Below are positions 2 through 10,018 of a stretch of DNA of 22,561 nucleotides, one piece after another; the first letter of the stretch is position 1, and the number at the start of each line of letters is the position of its first letter. The stretch lies in the IMG/VR virus record IMGVR_UViG_3300031974_000975, positions 1 through 22,561 of that record, one strand, 5' to 3'. The position numbers and the translations under genes were made by a program. The stretch comes from a virus. Under the pieces are notes generated by a model. It did not search any database, was not told the DNA's origin, and saw only the letters and a program-made list of their open reading frames with translations.

Positions 2-448
2 GGAACAGGCCAGTATCCTCCAACGAATATGACAAATGCATATTGGTATTGTAATGAAGATACTGGTGTTGGGGTTACTATACCTCCTCCGCCTCCAAAT
101 ATTACTTATAGCTACTCAGTAAAGAACAATGGTCAAGACACTTCTCAACCATTTGATGTTGGATTCTGGCGCTTTACAGATGTTACAAACGCACCTGATG
201 TAGCCATCCTTACAGTCCAAGCAGCAGAGCTTTATCCCGATGCTCAATTAGTGGGCACCCAAAGCGTACAGGCGCTACCCCCAGGAGGAACTTTTAATGG
301 TACATTTGTATTCCCACAAACTTATACTACTTCAATAGGCGAGTATGTATTTGGTGTGTATCCTGATGTCTACCAGACAGTTACAGAGCCTAATGAACAA
401 AACTCTGCTCCCACAATACGGGTTGTAGTTTCTAATAGTTGTGGGTAA
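2..448 (+). CDS. C-terminal part of a CARDB-domain (Ig-like) protein, 5' truncated
   Basis: The frame is open to the left window edge, so this is the tail of a longer gene; an ATG at 29 exists but nine sense codons precede it without a stop. The visible residues form one beta-sandwich repeat of the CARDB type: 'VKNNGQDTSQPFDVGFWR' starts the domain, 'LPPGG' forms the mid-domain turn, and 'VTEPNEQNSAPTIRVVV' matches the E-x-N-E-x-N closing strand of the family. A proline run (PPPPP) lies just before the domain and looks like a linker. CARDB domains occur in surface and adhesion proteins, and in phages in fibres or virion decorations. The gene sits upstream of the sheath and tube genes, so a structural or host-contact role is likely, but this is inferred from one domain and position only. 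Confidence 0.72.
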   Translation, partial: GTGQYPPTNMTNAYWYCNEDTGVGVTIPPPPPNITYSYSVKNNGQDTSQPFDVGFWRFTDVTNAPDVAILTVQAAELYPDAQLVGTQSVQALPPGGTFNGTFVFPQTYTTSIGEYVFGVYPDVYQTVTEPNEQNSAPTIRVVVSNSCG

Positions 449-502
449 AAAAGTTTCATAAACAGTAGTTTAGTATAGTACATAATAAAGAGAGGATTAG
501 TT

Positions 503-679
503 ATGAAGGTAGTAAAGAACGATTGTATGCAAGCCATTGTTGTTTTCTTTAACACTGAAACGGGGTGCTTAGAAAAAAACATGAAGCCTGGGGAGACCAT
601 CGTGGTTCCCGAGGGCTACATTACTGAACAGATCAAAACCCTGCATCGTCGCAGGATTTTTAAAATCTCTAATGCGTGA
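503..679 (+). CDS. small conserved-looking phage protein, 58 aa, function unknown
   Basis: ATG at 503 has a Shine-Dalgarno-like GAGAGGA about 7 bases upstream. The frame ends with TGA at 677-679, eleven bases before the sheath start, which fits the packing of the neighbouring genes. The product is 58 aa and basic near its end (LHRRRIFKI). It has the look of a small beta-rich protein: a hydrophobic strand (AIVVFF), then 'MKPGETIVVPEGYIT', a turn-strand pattern common in small phage structural proteins. No signal peptide or membrane segment is visible. I do not recognise the family. Position directly ahead of sheath and tube suggests a virion or tail-assembly role, which is inference. Confidence 0.68.
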   Translation: MKVVKNDCMQAIVVFFNTETGCLEKNMKPGETIVVPEGYITEQIKTLHRRRIFKISNA

Positions 680-2905: not shown

Positions 2906-3499
2906 ATGGCAACATCTTACTACAAGAATAAATATGGCAGAGACTTCACCCCTGGGCAGGGTCTGCCTACCGTATCAACTGACCTTGATTCGGTTCGGGC
3001 CTATCAGTTTGAAGTTCACTTCTTCGGTCTTCCTGAGGATATTACTAACCAAACTGATCTTACCCTAGCTGCTAAGAAGGTCGGTGGTCTTGAGATGAAG
3101 AACGAGACTATCACTATTGATCGTGTCAACGATAAGCTTCACTACCCAGGCAAGACCACTCCTGGCGAGCTTACCATCGACTTCGACAACCTGTACCTTC
3201 GTGAGACCGCCTCTGATCTTTACCGCTTCTTCCGTCACACCTATGATCCCATCACTGGTGAGATGACTAAGAGCGCCCAGCCAGGAGGTACTACTGGACA
3301 GAGCTTTAAGGCTGATAAGGTGGAGATTGTCATGCTTGACAACACCCTAACTCCTCACTCTACGATTGAGCTTTATGGTGTTTATCCCATTTCATGGTCT
3401 GCCTCTGAGTTCAACTACTCACAAAACCAGTTCCACCAGTTGACTGTAAACTTCAAGTACGACTTCATGAATGTTTACAACTACTCCAACCCCTCCTGA
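2906..3499 (+). CDS. tail tube protein (T4 gp19-like)
   Basis: The product is 197 aa, close to the 163-200 aa usual for this family. It follows the sheath gene by 11 bases and has a strong ribosome-binding site (AAGGAG, 8 bases before ATG). Family-typical segments include 'YQFEVHFFGLPE' near the N-terminus, 'KVGGLEMKNETITIDRVNDK' in the middle, 'GELTIDFDNLY', and a C-terminal 'KVEIVMLDN...IELYGVYPISWSASEFNYSQNQ...LTVNFKYD', the conserved end of T4-type tube proteins. The subunits form the hexameric rings of the inner tube through which DNA passes. A hairpin terminator lies 22 bases after the stop, so this is the last gene of the virion transcription unit. Confidence 0.95.
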   Translation: MATSYYKNKYGRDFTPGQGLPTVSTDLDSVRAYQFEVHFFGLPEDITNQTDLTLAAKKVGGLEMKNETITIDRVNDKLHYPGKTTPGELTIDFDNLYLRETASDLYRFFRHTYDPITGEMTKSAQPGGTTGQSFKADKVEIVMLDNTLTPHSTIELYGVYPISWSASEFNYSQNQFHQLTVNFKYDFMNVYNYSNPS

Positions 3500-3520: not shown

Positions 3521-3560
3521 AAGGCTCAGTCTGTACCTACATTCAGACTGAGCCTTTTCT
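3521..3560 (+). terminator. Rho-independent terminator after the tail tube gene
   Basis: A perfect 13-bp inverted repeat (3521-3533, AAGGCTCAGTCTG, pairing with 3544-3556) encloses a 10-base loop and is followed by TTCT. The hairpin sits just downstream of the tail tube stop codon and just upstream of a candidate promoter at 3568. It separates the sheath/tube unit from the next gene. The U-tract is short and interrupted, but the stem is long and fully paired. Confidence 0.88.
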
Positions 3561-3567
3561 CGCTTGG

Positions 3568-3575
3568 CTATAATA
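3568..3575 (+). promoter_or_regulatory. candidate promoter element CTATAATA, 4 bases before a start codon
   Basis: CTATAATA lies between the terminator and the ATG at 3580, with only TATC between element and start codon. No -35-like hexamer is visible 16-18 bases upstream; that space is occupied by the terminator arm. The same octamer occurs before the genes at 6438 and 7460 and at 20019. If it acts as a -10 or T4-late-type element, transcription would begin at or within one base of the start codon, giving a leaderless mRNA. No Shine-Dalgarno sequence is present, which is consistent with that reading. Confidence 0.5.
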
Positions 3576-3579
3576 TATC

Positions 3580-5913
3580 ATGGATTACCTTTCAGAGTTA
3601 TTAGAGAGCTACAGTAAGCTCAAAAAGAGAACATTCAAGCTGACATATATTTGCGAGCAGGATGATCCTAAGGCAGAATCTGCTTTGATAGCCATACTAA
3701 AGAACGCTCCAGCTACCCCAGGCTATGAGCAAAGTATTGAAGATCCAAATTATCCTGGCTTAAAAAGTTTTAAATATAGACAAACTAAGGACGGAGGGGT
3801 TTCGGTAAAACCACCTAGTCCTGATATCCCACAAGCCACAGTGTTGGATGCTAATGGAGCCCGAGCAAAAGTAAAACAAAACGGAAAACCAAACACTGCT
3901 GGCGATACCGTGTGGGAGATGATGTTTAAAGCCATGGCGGGCGAGGGAGAAGAACCCCCTGCATCAGATAAGGTTGGAGATAACATAGAGGATCAAGAGC
4001 AACAGGCAGAGGCCGAAAGACTATCCAAGCTTGCACAGCCAGGAGGTGCGTTTGAGGAACGCGGATATAATTTAGATCAAATCAGCCCTGCTTTAGACTC
4101 AATTGATAATAGTATTAGAACTGTTCAATCTGCTTGCGAGCAGTATGATCCCAAGAGCCAACCCAAGTATTGTAAAAACCCTGGAGTTTATTTAACAGGA
4201 GCCAGTAATGCTGGCTTTGCACACAAGCTTTCAGCGGGTAAGGTAGTTCAGGTCAACCCAGAGACAGGTCAGAAGACAGGCGAAGGTCAGATGGAGCCTG
4301 GACTACTTAACTCTGTAGCTCAATCCCACGATGCCCTTATGGACTTCCTTGGAGGCGAAGGGGATTGTGATACTATCACCCAGAAGATTGGTTTTTATAA
4401 AAACCGAATGGTTGTTTTTGGCTCAGACACTTCTGAAGGTGTAACTATTACGCCAAATGATCTACAGAATGATGCCATTAACAAGGTTAAAGATAAGTGC
4501 GGCGCAGACATTAATCTTAATGAGATTGCAGAAGACAATCTAAGCACAAACGCCATTAATGCAGTTAAGGGCACCTTCAACGAATTAGTTCTCCAGCTAG
4601 GAGTTCGTCTATTAGCCGCTCCCGATGAGGCTTCCCGTCAAGCAGCATTCAAAGAAGTAGCAGCGGAGATCGACAAGCGTAGACAATTCCTTACAGAGTA
4701 TGCTGAGTCTTTAAATGTACAGGACGATGTTGCATTAGGGCTAGACGAAACTTTTGAGAGAGAAGTTCTCACGGAACAAGCAGGAATTGCACAGAGCAAC
4801 ACCGCACTTAAGAACTGGTTCCTAAAAGAGTTATCTTTCCAGATGGCTTTCGTAAAGGCAGCGGGCGCAGACAATGTAGAACCAGCGGGTAGAGAGATCA
4901 AGACTGGTGGCCGTGAGGATACCAATCTAATTTACAACGATCAGGCTAGAGCAGAGGCAGCAGCCAAGCAATTTGGTTCTAAAGTTAAAAAACGAGACGA
5001 CGGAACCTTCGCTGTGGGTATTGGTCAGAAGAGAATTGAGAAACTCAAAAAAGTCAAACTGGGTGAGATCAATTCTACTGAACGAATGATGGCTATCATG
5101 ACTGGCGAAGCTCGCAACGATGCCAACATGGAGCCTGGGTTCCAAAAAAGAATCTCTTCCATGCAGTTCGGTAACGATCAGGCTAGAGAGAACAGAGCGG
5201 TAGAATACATGAAGAACCTAGAGGCTAAGATCGCAAAGATGACAAAGCCTCTGACTGAGTTTACAACCTATGTTGGACAAGATGGTAAGATCAAATCTGA
5301 GTCTCCTGAGACAAGGCTCAAGGGTATCGCTGCAAGAGTAAAAGGTCTACTAGGTTACAACGCGCTAAAGGAATCTGCTCTAGGTAAGGCCCTATTTAAA
5401 GGAGACAAAGGCTACCAAGACTTCGGTGACGAGAGCACTCAACAAAGGGCTGCGGAAGTGGTAGCGAGGGAGGCTAGATTTAAGGAAATGAAATCTGCGA
5501 TTGAGTCTGGGGATCAGGCTGCTCAAGATGCAGCAGTTAAGATGGCATTAATCTGTGGAGCTAATGCCAACAACATGACTCAGGTATTTACTGATGATTC
5601 AGGAGAGACTTACGCAATCCCACACAATAAGGTATTCGAAGAAGTATGTAAGGCAAACTCTGCTGGAAACCTTCAAGTTAAAGTTTCTGGAACTACTATG
5701 ACAATGGTTACACCTGATGGTCTTGAGATTAGCTTTAACCAAGAGGGCACTTGGGGAGGAGGTACGAGAAGAACTAGAAGTAATACTAGAATTTCTCCTG
5801 ACACCATCAAAAGACTGAATACACTTACTAAGCAGACGGCAGAGTCTACACTTCACCAGTTCCTTGAGGGTCAGATGAAACTACTGCAAGAGATTCTTAA
5901 CTCATCCAAATAG
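3580..5913 (+). CDS. large protein of unknown function, 777 aa
   Basis: I do not recognise this protein. Residues 1-20 are charged and helical. About residues 60-160 are rich in Pro, Gly, Glu and Gln and probably disordered. Several long charged helical stretches follow ('FKEVAAEIDKRRQFLTEYAE', 'VEYMKNLEAKIAKMTKPL', 'AAEVVAREARFKEMKSAIE'), suggesting a mostly alpha-helical protein with coiled-coil potential. A beta-rich segment ('LQVKVSGTTMTMVTPDGLEI') and a final helix end it. No signal peptide, membrane segment or catalytic motif is evident. It is a single-gene unit, with a terminator and candidate promoter before it and a convergent gene overlapping its last 17 bases. Its place beside sheath and tube makes an internal virion, ejected or assembly protein plausible, but that rests on position only. 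Confidence 0.85.
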   Translation: MDYLSELLESYSKLKKRTFKLTYICEQDDPKAESALIAILKNAPATPGYEQSIEDPNYPGLKSFKYRQTKDGGVSVKPPSPDIPQATVLDANGARAKVKQNGKPNTAGDTVWEMMFKAMAGEGEEPPASDKVGDNIEDQEQQAEAERLSKLAQPGGAFEERGYNLDQISPALDSIDNSIRTVQSACEQYDPKSQPKYCKNPGVYLTGASNAGFAHKLSAGKVVQVNPETGQKTGEGQMEPGLLNSVAQSHDALMDFLGGEGDCDTITQKIGFYKNRMVVFGSDTSEGVTITPNDLQNDAINKVKDKCGADINLNEIAEDNLSTNAINAVKGTFNELVLQLGVRLLAAPDEASRQAAFKEVAAEIDKRRQFLTEYAESLNVQDDVALGLDETFEREVLTEQAGIAQSNTALKNWFLKELSFQMAFVKAAGADNVEPAGREIKTGGREDTNLIYNDQARAEAAAKQFGSKVKKRDDGTFAVGIGQKRIEKLKKVKLGEINSTERMMAIMTGEARNDANMEPGFQKRISSMQFGNDQARENRAVEYMKNLEAKIAKMTKPLTEFTTYVGQDGKIKSESPETRLKGIAARVKGLLGYNALKESALGKALFKGDKGYQDFGDESTQQRAAEVVAREARFKEMKSAIESGDQAAQDAAVKMALICGANANNMTQVFTDDSGETYAIPHNKVFEEVCKANSAGNLQVKVSGTTMTMVTPDGLEISFNQEGTWGGGTRRTRSNTRISPDTIKRLNTLTKQTAESTLHQFLEGQMKLLQEILNSSK

Positions 5914-6409
5914 AATCTTCTTCTTTGAGTAGATCATCAAACATGTATACTCTATAGTGTATGCCCTCTTTGTGTATCTCTATGTAGTTATTAGATTGTA
6001 CTACTATATTAGAGGGGATGATGGCTAATGTTGGCTGTCTATCTTGTTTAAATATAACCATAGGAATCTTTCCGCACTTCTCTGAATCTTTTTGGCATTG
6101 GTCTATAAATTTCCAGAACTCGCTACTATGATTATATAAACTATATAAGTTTTGGTTATTGTATCCTTTCTTACACTCTAGGCAATACTTAAAGTTTTGT
6201 GGTGTAATCAAGTCCCCATAAATTTTAAGGTGATCTGGCAACGAGTGTGTGGTGGCGAACGCACCAGACCCAGGAGTTCTTGAAAATTCCGTGGTGCCCA
6301 ATCTATCATTGAGTATCTTGGCGATCTGCCGCTCAAAGGTGGAACCCTTCGCCCTACTGTTTACCTTCTTTTTCTTCTTCAAAGCAGAAATATCGTAATT
6401 ATCTTTCAT
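5897..6409 (-). CDS. Hjc-like PD-(D/E)XK nuclease (possible Holliday-junction resolvase)
   Basis: The product is 170 aa. After a lysine run (KKKKK, residues 11-15) it shows the archaeal/phage Hjc-type pattern: 'RAKGSTFERQIAKIL' with Glu26, 'FSRTPGSGAF' (residues 42-51), 'GDLITP' with Asp66, and the catalytic 'LECKKG' with Glu78 and Lys80. These match the E...D...ExK metal site of PD-(D/E)XK nucleases. Such enzymes cut branched DNA in recombination and packaging. It reads against its neighbours, overlapping the end of the 777-aa gene by 17 bases and facing away from the next gene. Its base composition is low in G+C: about 37% over 5941-6300 by hand count, against about 53% in part of the ssDNA-binding gene. 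Another restriction-fold endonuclease role is possible. Confidence 0.72.
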   Translation of the reverse strand: MKDNYDISALKKKKKVNSRAKGSTFERQIAKILNDRLGTTEFSRTPGSGAFATTHSLPDHLKIYGDLITPQNFKYCLECKKGYNNQNLYSLYNHSSEFWKFIDQCQKDSEKCGKIPMVIFKQDRQPTLAIIPSNIVVQSNNYIEIHKEGIHYRVYMFDDLLKEEDSIWMS

Positions 6410-6424
6410 AACCTGTGCTCTGCA

Positions 6425-6433
6425 CTATAATAG
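6425..6433. promoter_or_regulatory. CTATAATAG element in a divergent intergenic space
   Basis: CTATAATAG lies between the leftward nuclease gene (start 6409) and the rightward gene starting at 6438. On the + strand it ends five bases before the ATG (GACCA between octamer and start). It is near-palindromic (CTATWATAG), so the minus strand reads CTATTATAG and could serve as a -10 box for the nuclease gene, with a leader of roughly 11 bases. No clear -35 is visible in either direction. The 11-base string CTATAATAGAC recurs at the other divergent junction (7449). Confidence 0.47.
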
Positions 6434-6437
6434 ACCA

Positions 6438-6773
6438 ATGGACGCCGAGACCACAAATATTAAACTCGATGTTAGTCAATGGAAAATCCGCGTAGACGAG
6501 CGGACAAGGAATCGTATGAAACTACAAATCAAACTATCAAAGGACGAAGCGACTGCTTTCAAGAACTTCGCCAGCGTATGCAAGCCAGAGGAGATCTCTG
6601 ACGATGATTTCATCAAGACTGTTTTTGTTACGGGCATTGAAGCTCTGAACAAGCAGCTTGCTGAGATGGTGTCTAAGTACGCTGCCGAAAACAAGGAGGA
6701 GCTTGCCGCTTCTGGTATCACTGTCATTGAAGAAGACGGTGGAGTTAGGCTCGAAGAATCTACTACTGAGTGA
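6438..6773 (+). CDS. small helical protein of unknown function, 111 aa
   Basis: I do not recognise a named family. The product is 111 aa. It begins with an acidic stretch, then a basic strand-like segment ('MKLQIKLSKDEATAFKNFA') followed by two helices ('DDDFIKTVFVTGIEALNKQLAEMVSKYAAEN') and an acidic tail. The strand-helix-helix order resembles small ribbon-helix-helix DNA-binding proteins, but this is only a pattern resemblance. No Shine-Dalgarno sequence precedes the ATG; the candidate promoter element is five bases upstream. The stop TGA overlaps the ATG of the next gene by one base (TGATG), so the two are probably translationally coupled. Confidence 0.8.
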   Translation: MDAETTNIKLDVSQWKIRVDERTRNRMKLQIKLSKDEATAFKNFASVCKPEEISDDDFIKTVFVTGIEALNKQLAEMVSKYAAENKEELAASGITVIEEDGGVRLEESTTE

Positions 6774-7111
6774 TGTACAACTTACAGTTCCTTTCTAAGG
6801 AAAATGATCTGAACAAGATCATCAAAGCGTACAAGAAGGACAAGAAGAGTATCAACATCTTGTTCGTGTCGCTGTGGGACGAGTGGTGTCAAGAGCTTGT
6901 TGAAAAGCTCAAAGAGAAGTATGCTGACAATGATCGGGGCCAGCCCCTATACATTGTGGATAGCTTCTACATGCCACACAGCTTCGTTATTTACAATACT
7001 TCGAAGCTCCCACACCTTGTACATCTAAACCATAAGGGCGTGCATTCGGAAGACTACCTTCCAATGATTTACAACACGCTTATGCCCAAGAAAAAGAAAA
7101 GAGCTAAATGA
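6773..7111 (+). CDS. thioredoxin-fold-like small protein with a degenerate active site
   Basis: The product is 112 aa from ATG 6773, whose A is the last base of the preceding stop codon; a GTG one codon earlier is possible. The order strand ('INILFVSLW'), helix ('DEWCQELVEKLKEKYAD'), strand ('PLYIVDSF'), Pro-containing loop ('YMPHSFVIYN') and strand ('HLVHLNHKG') is that of a thioredoxin fold, with Pro68 in the cis-proline position. Thioredoxins have W-C-x-x-C; here the segment is W-D-E-W-C-Q-E with a single cysteine (Cys39), so disulfide exchange is unlikely in the usual form. The C-terminus is strongly basic (PKKKKRAK). It converges with the sigma-like gene, overlapping it by 8 bases. The fold is my inference from pattern. 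Confidence 0.62.
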   Translation: MYNLQFLSKENDLNKIIKAYKKDKKSINILFVSLWDEWCQELVEKLKEKYADNDRGQPLYIVDSFYMPHSFVIYNTSKLPHLVHLNHKGVHSEDYLPMIYNTLMPKKKKRAK

Positions 7112-7445
7112 TATTGTCCTTGTGTTGGTCAATATAATTTTCGATCTTCTTAGCGTACTTTTTCTCACGGGTGTACAGCAGTTTCAAGTTGTTTATGATA
7201 ACTGTTGTAAAATAGTTGAACGCCGAGCCCTTCCTGGGTTTGAAGTTCTTCACTGTTTTCAGAACTAGAGTGAAACACTCTTGCTTTGCATCATCGGGAT
7301 CTACATTGAATTTGAAGGTCTCGATGATGTTCTGTATTAAGACATCAAATAAAGAAACTAGCTCTTCCTCATACTTTTCGGGATCACGCTGGTATGATAG
7401 GATGATCTCCTCGAACCTCGCGTTATCTATGTAATGGTTTTTCAT
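7104..7445 (-). CDS. sigma-70 region 2-like protein, probable T4 gp55-type late sigma factor
   Basis: The product is 113 aa, shorter than T4 gp55 (185 aa). Residues 30-105 resemble sigma region 2: a first helix ('LFDVLIQNIIETFKF'), an acidic 'DPDDAKQECFTLVLKTV' that fits the core-polymerase-binding helix, 'NFKPRKGSAFNYFTTVIINN' and a basic 'LKLLYTREKKYAKKIENY'. T4 gp55 has the same order, ending in 'RIKKERKEVAKKYSYFV'. The 'F-x-x-x-K-G-S-A-F-N-Y-F-T' segment is typical of region 2.3/2.4, which melts and reads the -10 element. There is no region 4, as in gp55, so a -35 box would not be needed. It lies on the minus strand, diverging from the polymerase genes across a 14-base gap. It may direct core polymerase to the CTATAATA sites. 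Confidence 0.66.
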   Translation of the reverse strand: MKNHYIDNARFEEIILSYQRDPEKYEEELVSLFDVLIQNIIETFKFNVDPDDAKQECFTLVLKTVKNFKPRKGSAFNYFTTVIINNLKLLYTREKKYAKKIENYIDQHKDNII

Positions 7446-7448
7446 ACC

Positions 7449-7457
7449 CTATAATAG
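7449..7457. promoter_or_regulatory. CTATAATAG element filling the 14-base gap between sigma and polymerase genes
   Basis: The whole gap between the minus-strand sigma start (7445) and the plus-strand exonuclease start (7460) is 14 bases, and the CTATAATAG element occupies nine of them. On the + strand three bases (GAC) separate the octamer from ATG; on the - strand the palindromic counterpart CTATTATAG lies three bases before the sigma ATG. Any promoter here would give leaderless or nearly leaderless mRNAs in both directions. No -35 hexamer is evident. Confidence 0.5.
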
Positions 7458-7459
7458 AC

Positions 7460-8482
7460 ATGTTTGATCTAGACAAATTGTATCAAGGACACAAAGCACA
7501 TGGCGACAACCCCCTGTGCCACGGGTGTTCTATTCTGGAGAAGTCCAAGCCCTGTCACTCAGTCATGGACTACGAGGAGCTATCTCCAGCACCTGTCCTG
7601 TTTCTGTCAGACTCAATCAAATACAAGCTAGGTTCTACTCAGGCATTTTCCAAACCTGAGATTCAGCTTCTAAAGGAGTGCTATCCTGAGAAGTTTGTCA
7701 TGGCTGCTTCGGTCAAGTGTCCCTCCGTGAAGGAGGCTGACATGAGCCCCAACAACATGAACCTGTGCCGACAGCATCTTGACGCTACTATTGACAAGGT
7801 GCAGCCCAAACTCATCTTCGCGTGCGGCAACTTGGCTATGAAGATGCTTATTAAGAAAAGCGGTATCACCAACAAGAGAGGTAAGTCGTATGATTATACA
7901 ACTAGTTCTGGGCATAATTGCATCGTTGTGCCTGTTTACCATCCTTATTCCTGTATTAAAGAGCCTCGTCACCTCCAACTCTTCAAGACAGACATCTCAA
8001 ATGCTTATGAAAAATATGTACTTGAGAGGAGAAGCGAAGGATCATTCTCGTACACAGTCCTCATGGAGATCAACGAGGTCAGCGATCTCGCGGAAAAGCT
8101 ACAAGATTCCCAAGAGACGATTGCAGTAGATACTGAGACTACGGGGCTGAACTTCCTGAAGGATGATATCATGACCATCGCTCTCACCACACGGGAGAAC
8201 ACTTGGGTCATTCCTCTGGACCACAAGGACAGCCCCTTTAGGAAGGGACAGCCTGACTACGCCAAGGTGTGGGGTTGTTTGCGTCGAATCCTTGAGAATC
8301 CTAAGAGCAGGAAGGTCTTTCATAATGCCAAGTTCGATCTCAAGTTCCTTATCAACTATGGCATTTACACCAAGAATGTTTGGGACACCAAGATTATGCA
8401 CCACCTCCTTGATGAGAACATGCCCAAGAGTCTGATGGATCTCACCAAGCTATACTTCGCCAACGAACTGGAGAACCTGTAA
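7460..8482 (+). CDS. family A DNA polymerase, piece 1: UDG-like domain plus first half of 3'-5' exonuclease
   Basis: The product is 340 aa. Residues 1-190 resemble a family 4 uracil-DNA glycosylase: Cys20 and Cys23 (CxxC), Cys87 (VKCPS) and Cys103 match the four iron-sulfur ligands, and 'VVPVYHPY' (156-163) matches the HP motif. The usual catalytic GE-x-P-G-x-x-E segment is not recognisable ('FLSDSIKYKLGS'), so glycosylase activity is doubtful. Residues 195-340 are a DnaQ-type exonuclease with ExoI 'VDTETTGL' (Asp224, Glu226) and ExoII 'HNAKFDLKFL' (Asp293). The frame stops before ExoIII, which lies at the start of the next gene. Stop and next start overlap as TAATG. The gene is preceded by a CTATAATA element and no ribosome-binding site. 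Confidence 0.87.
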   Translation: MFDLDKLYQGHKAHGDNPLCHGCSILEKSKPCHSVMDYEELSPAPVLFLSDSIKYKLGSTQAFSKPEIQLLKECYPEKFVMAASVKCPSVKEADMSPNNMNLCRQHLDATIDKVQPKLIFACGNLAMKMLIKKSGITNKRGKSYDYTTSSGHNCIVVPVYHPYSCIKEPRHLQLFKTDISNAYEKYVLERRSEGSFSYTVLMEINEVSDLAEKLQDSQETIAVDTETTGLNFLKDDIMTIALTTRENTWVIPLDHKDSPFRKGQPDYAKVWGCLRRILENPKSRKVFHNAKFDLKFLINYGIYTKNVWDTKIMHHLLDENMPKSLMDLTKLYFANELENL

Positions 8483-8961
8483 TGCTTACGATTGACAACC
8501 CCAGCAAGTTCGACTGGGCCAACATGGATCTATCCGATTGCTGTGAGGGCAACGCGATGGATACATACTTCACCCTCAAGCTGTTCGATCTGATTATGGA
8601 GAAGTTCGAAGGTGATCCCGTCATGAATCTCATTGAGAATGTTGTGATGCCATCTCTTGAAACCTTCGCTGAGATGGAGTATAATGGTCTGATCGTGGAT
8701 ACTGACAAGCTCGATGCTGTGGGTAGGCAACTGCGCTCCAAGAACATGAACGAAGAGGATTCTCTGTACTCATGTGAGGGCGTAGACAACAGCGATAACC
8801 TGTCATCCAACAACGACCTTATCGAGATCCTTTATCTGCGCGAGGAAGGTATGGGCCTCTACCCACCTGATCGCACAGGGAAGGGCAAGCCGTCAGTATC
8901 AGCACCTACACTTAAACTTCTGCTAGAGCACATCGAAGAGGAGCTACAAACCCGTGAGTAA
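8482..8961 (+). CDS. family A DNA polymerase, piece 2: end of exonuclease and part of thumb
   Basis: The product is 159 aa in a different frame from the pieces before and after it. Residues 19-35 ('DCCEGNAMDTYFTLKLF') carry the ExoIII motif with its catalytic Asp27, so the exonuclease site must be completed by association with piece 1. The Tyr four residues before this Asp in Y-type enzymes is Gly23 here. From about residue 50, 'PSLETFAEMEYNGLIVDTDKL' and 'KGKPSVSAPTLKLLLEHIEE' match the start of the polymerase domain up to the thumb. GGAGA eight bases before the ATG, inside the end of piece 1, is a good ribosome-binding site. Coupling by TAATG is likely. The frame ends eight bases inside piece 3. 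Confidence 0.83.
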   Translation: MLTIDNPSKFDWANMDLSDCCEGNAMDTYFTLKLFDLIMEKFEGDPVMNLIENVVMPSLETFAEMEYNGLIVDTDKLDAVGRQLRSKNMNEEDSLYSCEGVDNSDNLSSNNDLIEILYLREEGMGLYPPDRTGKGKPSVSAPTLKLLLEHIEEELQTRE

Positions 8962-10018
8962 ATGGAAGCACAGGGACGAAGGCAAGCGCATCAGCAAGTC
9001 TGTCATCAGCAGCAAGTCCACGGAGGATCTGCGTAACGCTAGACGATTTGTGAAAGGCTTGCTCGATCTTCGCAAGTCGGAGAAGCTGTCCAAGACTTAT
9101 ATCGAGGGCACCAAGAAAGCCATTGAGTACAATGGTATGGACAAGGTGTTCTGCGATTTCCGTTTCGATGGCACAGCAACAGGTCGCCTATCTTGTGCAG
9201 CGTACAACGCTCAACAAGCTATGGGTGTATCTTTCCACACTCTGCCCAGGGAGACAGAGAACAATATTCGTTCTCTCTTTGCTGCTCCTAAGGGTTGGGC
9301 ATTTATTGCTGCGGACTATGCAGCTATGGAACTCCGCGTCCTGTCACATATTGCCAAGGAAGGTAATATGCAACTCGCCTTCAATCAGGGCGCGGACCTA
9401 CACACCTACACCGCAAAGCTTCTGTTCAACAAGGAGCAGATCAGCAAGGAGGAGCGACAGATTGCCAAGGCTGTATCCTTCCTGATTGTTTATGGTGGAG
9501 GTGCATTCAATCTCAGCGAGACCATGAACATTCCCATGAAGCGTGCTGAGAAGATTATCAAAGACTATGAGAATGTGTACCCAGGTATCTTCGCATACAT
9601 GGATCATGTAAACAACTTTATCAAGAGCAACGGATATGCCTATACTATTTTTGGCCGCAAGCGCAACCTTCCTGATGTCTATAGCCGTGATCGCCAAGTC
9701 GTTAATCGAGCACTTAGACAAGGGTTGAACTTCACCATTCAAAGCTCTGCGTCTGACATCCTGCTCACCTCACTACTAGGTGCATCGCGCAGGTTCAAGG
9801 AGGCAGGACTAGAAGCTACACCAGTCGCCACGGTCCATGACTCCATCGAGATTATTTGTCCCAAAGAAGAAGTGCAGAAAACTGTGGAGATCCTCTATGA
9901 TGAGATGGTCAACTACCCTACCATCAAAGAGGTATTCAATATTCATTTCGATGTTCCGCTTGCCATCGACATTGAGGTGGGCACATCATTCGGAGATGTA
10001 GAAGCCTATGAGCTTTAA
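8954..10018 (+). CDS. family A DNA polymerase, piece 3: thumb end, palm and fingers
   Basis: The product is 354 aa, starting at GTG with GAGGAG ten bases upstream. It continues the thumb ('LLDLRKSEKLSKTYIEG') and contains all three polymerase motifs: 'GTATGRLS' (73-80); motif A 'AADYAAMELRVLSH' with Asp121; motif B 'RQIAKAVSFLIVYGG' with Arg168, Lys172, Phe176 and Tyr180; and motif C 'VATVHDSIEI' with His295 and Asp296. Klenow's Glu after the motif C Asp is Ser297 here. Phe176 is at the position where Phe disfavours dideoxynucleotides. With pieces 1 and 2 the total is about 853 aa, a normal length for a family A polymerase with an N-terminal addition. The last 11 bases overlap the HNH gene. 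Confidence 0.92.
   Translation: MSKWKHRDEGKRISKSVISSKSTEDLRNARRFVKGLLDLRKSEKLSKTYIEGTKKAIEYNGMDKVFCDFRFDGTATGRLSCAAYNAQQAMGVSFHTLPRETENNIRSLFAAPKGWAFIAADYAAMELRVLSHIAKEGNMQLAFNQGADLHTYTAKLLFNKEQISKEERQIAKAVSFLIVYGGGAFNLSETMNIPMKRAEKIIKDYENVYPGIFAYMDHVNNFIKSNGYAYTIFGRKRNLPDVYSRDRQVVNRALRQGLNFTIQSSASDILLTSLLGASRRFKEAGLEATPVATVHDSIEIICPKEEVQKTVEILYDEMVNYPTIKEVFNIHFDVPLAIDIEVGTSFGDVEAYEL

Follow-up and report, generated by a model that had tools for sequence, protein, structure and literature searches.

The window analyzed here, the whole 22,561-nt stretch of viral DNA in IMG/VR record IMGVR_UViG_3300031974_000975, carries an ORF for a 777-aa protein directly behind the gene for the tail tube protein gp19 (Table 1). 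The ORF starts with ATG and fills exactly the interval singled out in an earlier note on this DNA, which had also placed the gene correctly after gp19. A convergent gene for a PDDEXK endonuclease, similar to Holliday-junction resolvases, borders it on the other side. Farther along, the window holds a short sigma-like gene (7104-7445, minus strand; phrog_351, E 1.1e-5) and, at 7460-10018, three consecutive ORFs of 340, 159, and 354 aa that look DNA polymerase I-like by eye. Judged by eye in this way, the three are possibly a naturally split polymerase; the related contigs G001, G012, and G013 have ORFs of similar sizes, as does G011 as far as its contig reaches.

Table 1. Features of the 777-aa gene and its two neighbors (positions in the window)
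Feature	Position	Strand	Basis
Tail tube gp19, upstream neighbor outside the unit	2906..3499	+	PF06841 E 3.9e-8; phrog_4542 E 2.6e-18
Hairpin terminator between gp19 and the 777-aa gene; 13-bp stem, 10-nt loop, T-rich tail	3521..3556	+	Read in sequence
-10-only promoter, C-TATAAT-N5, directly before ATG	3568..3579	+	Read in sequence; family conservation
777-aa protein; family directly 3' of gp19	3580..5913	+	ORF call, family loci
Residues 1-26, proposed capsid-targeting propeptide ending I/L-x-E26	3580..3657	+	Identity cliff, motif, model
Residues 27-200, fast-evolving, sometimes exchanged N-terminal module	3658..4179	+	Family identities
Residues 321-746, HinP1I/MspI-like predicted fold	4540..5817	+	AlphaFold models, structural alignment
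Invariant E335, D447, K484	4582-4584, 4918-4920, 5029-5031	+	Family alignment
Residues 757-776, conserved C-terminal helix behind a low-confidence linker	5848..5907	+	AlphaFold2 model, family alignment
Convergent PDDEXK endonuclease/Holliday-junction-resolvase-like gene, downstream neighbor outside the unit	5897..6409	-	PF24608 E 9.4e-31; phrog_244 E 7.9e-25

The gene is a single-gene unit with its own terminator and promoter, as had been noted before, and both signals are kept across the family. That such control serves a protein required in another amount or at another time, as the earlier note proposed, is plausible. The hairpin that closes the tail operon has perfectly paired arms (3521-3533 and 3544-3556) followed by a short T-rich stretch; a consensus terminator scanner did not list it because that scanner allows loops of 3-8 nt only. 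Upstream stems of at least 11 bp (G-T pairs allowed) are present in 59 of 60 family members, the window included, and a T-rich tail follows the hairpin in 55 of the 60; the longest stem in 60 shuffled control upstream regions was 10 bp. The promoter hexamer TATAAT (3569-3574) lies 5 nt before the ATG and has no recognizable -35 element, which is why a consensus promoter scanner left it unlisted. C-TATAAT or C-TATTAT stands exactly 5 nt before the ATG in 59 of the 60 members (TATAAT in 46, TATTAT in 13). A Shine-Dalgarno-like sequence precedes the ATG in none of them, compared with 97 of 221 mechanically called ORFs (>=80 aa) from four related contigs. Transcription starting 5-7 nt past the -10 box would give the 777-aa gene a leaderless mRNA. 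The family promoter resembles those of some non-structural genes and not those of the head genes inspected.

Similar boxes occur elsewhere. TATAAT lies 6 nt before an ATG at window position 6438, and TATAAT or TATTAT is found 4-6 nt before the ATG of several non-structural genes in G001, G011, G012, and G013, the counterpart of the sigma-like gene being among the genes of this kind in relatives. The pattern suggests that the lineage has a class of leaderless promoters.

The earlier note called the protein an unrecognized orphan. For curated families the first word holds: Pfam, PHROGs, and PADLOC gave no match to the window protein, and NCBIfam gave just two, both far below threshold. A tblastn search against 50,697 phage records returned nothing, no credible match was seen in INPHARED or among PDB sequences, and a search of PDB sequences with the family profile reached a best E of 0.29, to an unrelated entry. 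When 34 members were scanned, Pfam gave isolated weak matches (best E 0.0086), and the best PHROGs were phrog_4359 (E 0.0009, one member) and phrog_2274 (E 0.0012, three members), neither with a named function. Clear homology to a described virion family, which would have spoken against that note, did not turn up in the libraries searched. The second word was wrong, since the protein belongs to a large family among IMG/VR contigs. With gp19 as bait in IMG/VR, we kept the best 80 of 138 loci, of which 72 reach at least 385 nt beyond gp19 and were usable (the other eight end within 172 nt). An ORF starts 52-91 nt after gp19 in all 72; 48 of these ORFs are complete and longer than 700 aa, and 24 are cut or broken. 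Of 243 pattern matches, a profile scan upheld 150 as relatives, and 80 of the 150 were kept; a single scan that covered bacterial and archaeal genomes yielded no confirmed relative. From IMG/VR contigs we collected 61 distinct complete family proteins of 772-987 aa, the window included; once thinned at 90%, the members share 22-85% identity with the window protein.

Judged by the sequences of its sheath, tube, gp21, gp23, and portal, the lineage is T4-like, and its tube protein had no tblastn match in the phage records. In one relative, G011, the sheath gene is preceded by one ORF of 3281 aa (G011:57345-67190, equivalent to L139:345-10190), and the C-terminal part of this ORF matches the tail sheath stabilizer (phrog_227, E 3.7e-8); three other contigs compared have shorter ORFs at this position.

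Conservation within the protein falls off a cliff at residue 26. Over 1,166 pairs from 49 genomes, residues 1-26 average 81% identity, nearly as conserved as the tube protein at 85%, and identity then drops to 20.5% for residues 27-200 and 31% from residue 201 to the end; the neighboring PDDEXK protein, located by motif in 29 of the 49 genomes, averages 76%. Position 26 is Glu in 61 of 61 members, and position 24 is Ile in 50 and Leu in 11. Position 27 is Ala in 29, Gln in 18 (as in the window), and another residue in 14, with Ala or Gly in 30 of the 61. In the AlphaFold2 model, residues 14-29 form a low-confidence tail before the ordered body. The codons for residues 1-26 vary synonymously among members, and the constraint therefore acts on the protein. 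Residues 27-200 are sometimes closer between members whose C-terminal parts are distant (L009 and L022, 51% v 29%), which suggests, from few pairs, that this module is exchanged by recombination.

In T4, gp21 cleaves after L/I-X-E, and the internal proteins carry N-terminal capsid-targeting sequences (CTSs) that gp21 removes (PMC9026906, in excerpt). The cliff at E26, combined with an I/L-x-E that matches the gp21 motif, makes residues 1-26 a likely CTS-type propeptide with a predicted cleavage site, and the rest of the protein probable head cargo. Inspected by eye, head genes of relatives carry comparable motifs, each in four of four related contigs: L/I-[TNS]-E near the N-terminus of the gp21 homologue itself, L/I/M-x-E ending at residue 12 of a 135-151-aa head-cluster protein, and L/I-x-E just before the conserved shell region of gp23. 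The capsid gene gp23 was found in 12 of 15 related records, and the protease matches phrog_207 at E 1.7e-50 in G011; neither gp21 nor gp23 lies within the 22.5-kb window fragment. Two observations speak against a propeptide: the 26-aa leader recurs in no other gene of the contigs examined, where its sole match is apparently a family copy with a frame shift, and position 27 varies. The length of the gp21-type protease ORF, taken from its mechanical start, differs among four relatives (472 to 849 aa; e.g., L133:12624-15173, equivalent to G012:31624-34173), and the G011 ORF shows further matches past the protease part, among them a weak one to a cytidyltransferase PHROG (E 7.3e-5).

The AlphaFold2 model of the window protein (34 sequences, mean pLDDT 82.9) bears out the long helical regions that had been read from the sequence but not the disordered Pro/Glu-rich ones, as 674 of 777 residues are at pLDDT >=70. 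We obtained a second AlphaFold model for the 605-residue C-terminal part of a member that is 26% identical (L043; pLDDT 81.8). VIA-align placed HinP1I (2fkc_A) first for both, with Z 8.9, rmsd 4.5, and 217 of 247 residues aligned for the window model (model residues 220..746) and Z 8.7, rmsd 4.5, and 213 of 247 for the L043 model (127..563), so that the two models, both predicted, cover 86-88% of HinP1I. The second rank went to MspI for the window model (Z 6.9, 197/262) and to another HinP1I entry, 1ynm, for the L043 model (Z 7.5). Unrelated rows reached Z <=5.7, and HhaI, at Z 4.4, falls within this background and was given no weight. MspI is grouped with HinP1I among PD-(D/E)XK enzymes (PMC7337904, in excerpt). 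A HinP1I Z near 9 is modest by itself because the typical best Z quoted by the tool for unmatched models is 7-8; the recurrence with an independent model, the near-whole-enzyme coverage, and the MspI match carry the weight for the predicted fold.

Foldseek gave no PDB match at E <=0.001 for either model. Its rows for the N4 virion RNA polymerase (rank 3, E 0.25) and for class D beta-lactamase and related proteins (E 0.3-1.4, probability <=0.1) were dropped, the former being absent among the 50 VIA-align rows listed and the latter likewise absent among the rows listed. In BFVD, matches were to A0A7D7JQW9, an unnamed protein (E 2.2e-4), and to a Satyrvirus protein (E 0.039). A 42-sequence alignment of the domain has eight invariant columns (C263, C307, E335, D447, K484, G495, E626, and R630 in window numbering), and all 61 members have E335, D447, and K484.

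At the level of sequence, we compared the family with six bacterial relatives of HinP1I and the PDB sequence. The hhalign comparison was not significant (P 0.06 and 0.11) and fell out of the expected register. A test of colinear blocks was not significant either: with the larger block sets, 34, 23, and 23 of 300 shuffles did as well, and with the three catalytic blocks, 196 of 300. We take D62, Q81, and K83 to be the catalytic residues of HinP1I. The Q81 position corresponds to G482 in the window protein, and this site, two residues before the Lys, is Gly in 89% of the family and otherwise Ser or Ala; the canonical catalytic D...(D/E/Q)xK is absent from the family, though D447 and K484 are invariant. 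E496, which is Glu or Asp throughout the family, might substitute for the Gln. Placed post hoc on HinP1I, D447 on D62 ranked 1/237, E335 on E18 ranked 3/235, and K484 on K83 ranked 18/240, and two C-terminal placements tried alongside ranked lower (45/235 and 15/227); these ranks are no test because the placement was chosen after seeing the sequences. With Gly at the Q81 position and no sequence homology, the 777-aa protein would be at best a diverged HinP1I-like fold, and we do not count it as a member.

We tentatively favor, at somewhat short of an even chance, the reading that the protein represents a new family of head cargo in a T4-like phage: an internal or ejection protein with a nuclease fold that is released by the head protease and injected. 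Residues 1-26 would direct the precursor into the prohead core, where a gp21-type protease would cut after E26 and free the mature body, residues 27-777. The body would then stay in the head with the DNA and enter the host at infection. Composed of the fast-evolving N-terminal module and a predicted HinP1I/MspI-like restriction-endonuclease fold, it may cut, or bind, DNA in the newly infected cell, be it the host chromosome, competing phages, or plasmids. The observed basis is the gene, its family and position, its control signals, the E26 cliff, the protease motif, gp21 and gp23 in relatives, the predicted fold, and the invariant Glu, Asp, and Lys; from these we infer packaging, cleavage, injection, activity, and target. 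Against a head-cargo nuclease stand the missing sequence homology to HinP1I, the Gly at the Gln position, a Z barely above background, the negative Foldseek result, and a promoter that looks unlike those of the head genes inspected.

A more specific version is distinctly unlikely: a packed restriction endonuclease would attack rival DNA or the chromosome of the host at some short palindrome, for example CCGG, and the phage would need no methyltransferase, its own genome having been purged of the site. CCGG, the MspI site, is the most avoided tetramer in 27 pooled, partly overlapping family sequences (82 seen, 980 expected, both strands), and the window has none where 54 are expected on both strands. 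ACGT is also avoided in some family loci. Many 6-bp palindromes are avoided in the pooled sequences as well (GAGCTC, 0 seen and 173 expected; ATCGAT, 0 seen and 149 expected), 17-kb stretches in which another gene follows gp19 likewise avoid CCGG (0/18 in SP-15, 2/14 in LIS04), and one group of family loci avoids it only mildly (L054, 38 seen and 48 expected). For these reasons the avoidance of CCGG is only suggestive as a hint to a cleavage site, and host restriction would account for it no less well than self-protection. If this version were true, a restriction enzyme would serve as a phage weapon, and avoidance of the site would be what distinguishes self from non-self.

The slot after gp19 raises other readings. 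The earlier note took it for the place where T4-type phages usually have the portal gene, while seeing no known portal features in the protein. The premise was reasonable because Pelagibacter phage HTVC008M keeps the portal directly after gp19, and the lack of portal features stood up, with no PHROG match to the protein. The slot itself does not hold the portal: G011, a relative that carries the gene, encodes a clear portal elsewhere (5968-7725, phrog_213, E 3.5e-86), adjoining the large terminase, and its genes for protease gp21 and capsid gp23 precede those for the tail. A portal that replaces gp20 in the T4 gene order is contradicted by this separate gene and is next to impossible. The PHROGs decided the matter; a search with PF07230 matched nowhere, the control included, and has no weight. 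A tape measure protein was set aside too, a 566-596-aa gene elsewhere in four relatives being likelier by eye, itself without PHROG support. SP-15 and LIS04 have a baseplate-hub gene in this slot, and that arrangement, together with the position directly behind the sheath and tube genes and weak matches of single members among the 34 to a tail-fiber PHROG (E 0.028) and a major-head PHROG (E 0.014), would suit a structural tail, neck, or baseplate protein of the lineage whose likeness to HinP1I is due to chance. Against this, the family evolves far faster than the tube and the PDDEXK neighbor, the window protein has no PHROG match, and HinP1I again came first with an independent model; we consider this reading very unlikely.

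Two further readings accept more of the evidence. The protein could be a head-targeted internal protein in which the HinP1I-like fold is a dead nuclease, used without cleavage as a DNA-binding scaffold or anti-defense effector in a role like that of T4 IPI or Alt. The leader evidence, motif and cliff alike, applies equally to such a protein, the predominant Gly at the catalytic Gln position agrees with it, and so rapid a divergence of the body would fit an effector in an arms race. For a dead enzyme, however, it would be unusual to keep E335, D447, and K484 in every member across so wide a range of identity, and we regard this reading as possible but somewhat unlikely. The other candidate is a nuclease or regulatory enzyme that is no virion component, is expressed from the leaderless promoter in the infected cell, and uses residues 1-26 as a partner-binding tail. 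It would agree with the TATAAT-N5-ATG arrangement, which resembles the promoters of the sigma-like and other non-structural genes in relatives, and with a separate unit outside the head operon. It leaves the fit of E26 to the prohead protease motif in all members, and the constant location directly behind gp19 in every usable locus among the best 80 of 138, without a role, and it is unlikely.

Effectors that travel in the particle are at work before the phage has expressed any of its genes, and few of them are understood. If the head-cargo nuclease reading is true, the protein could explain an early attack on host DNA or the exclusion of rivals in the first minutes of infection, in a T4-like lineage that recurs across many environmental contigs, and the 26-residue leader would be a marker for head cargo in this lineage.

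Among the closest known systems are the internal proteins of T4, which are much smaller than the 777-aa protein; the relatives have a gp21/gp23-type head, as T4 does. T4 IPI, IPII, IPIII, and Alt combine a short N-terminal targeting sequence ending in L/I-x-E with a divergent mature part, the layout proposed for the 777-aa protein, and Alt and IPI are precedents for head-packed, injected proteins (PMC9026906 and PMC5512222, in excerpt). The leader differs in its 26 residues from the 10-20 quoted for T4 (PMC5694885, in excerpt), no sequence relation to the T4 proteins was found, and the predicted fold is nuclease-like rather than that of an anti-restriction protein or an ADP-ribosyltransferase. 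Polyvalent proteins and injected effectors such as DarB and the N4 virion RNA polymerase offer another possible likeness, being large, packaged with DNA, injected, and encoded near late genes (PMC5512222, in excerpt); unlike them, the window protein has no Pfam domain, and the 34 members scanned show isolated weak matches only. With R.HinP1I and R.MspI, which are monomeric Type IIP enzymes, the protein shares a predicted fold that covers 213-217 of 247 HinP1I residues and invariant Glu, Asp, and Lys. It is far larger than these enzymes, is phage-borne, and has a leader, an extra module, and inserts, and it departs from HinP1I in its mostly Gly Q81 position and in undetected sequence homology.

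Restriction enzymes have entered phage heads by design: EcoRI, and also staphylococcal nuclease, were packaged into T4 heads in the laboratory as fusions to IPIII or its CTS (PMC9026906, in excerpt). Our search of the open-access literature, in the excerpts it offered, found no report of natural restriction-enzyme-like cargo in a tailed-phage head. A natural parallel is in chloroviruses, whose restriction enzymes are carried in the virion and are thought to start the degradation of host DNA (PMC7019647, in excerpt). As there, the family described here would place a virus-encoded putative DNA cutter in the particle; the chlorovirus enzymes differ in coming from a eukaryotic virus and in having adjacent methyltransferase genes. 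Should the head-cargo nuclease reading be confirmed, a phage would carry its own DNA cutter in its particle, extending the chlorovirus proposal to tailed phages.
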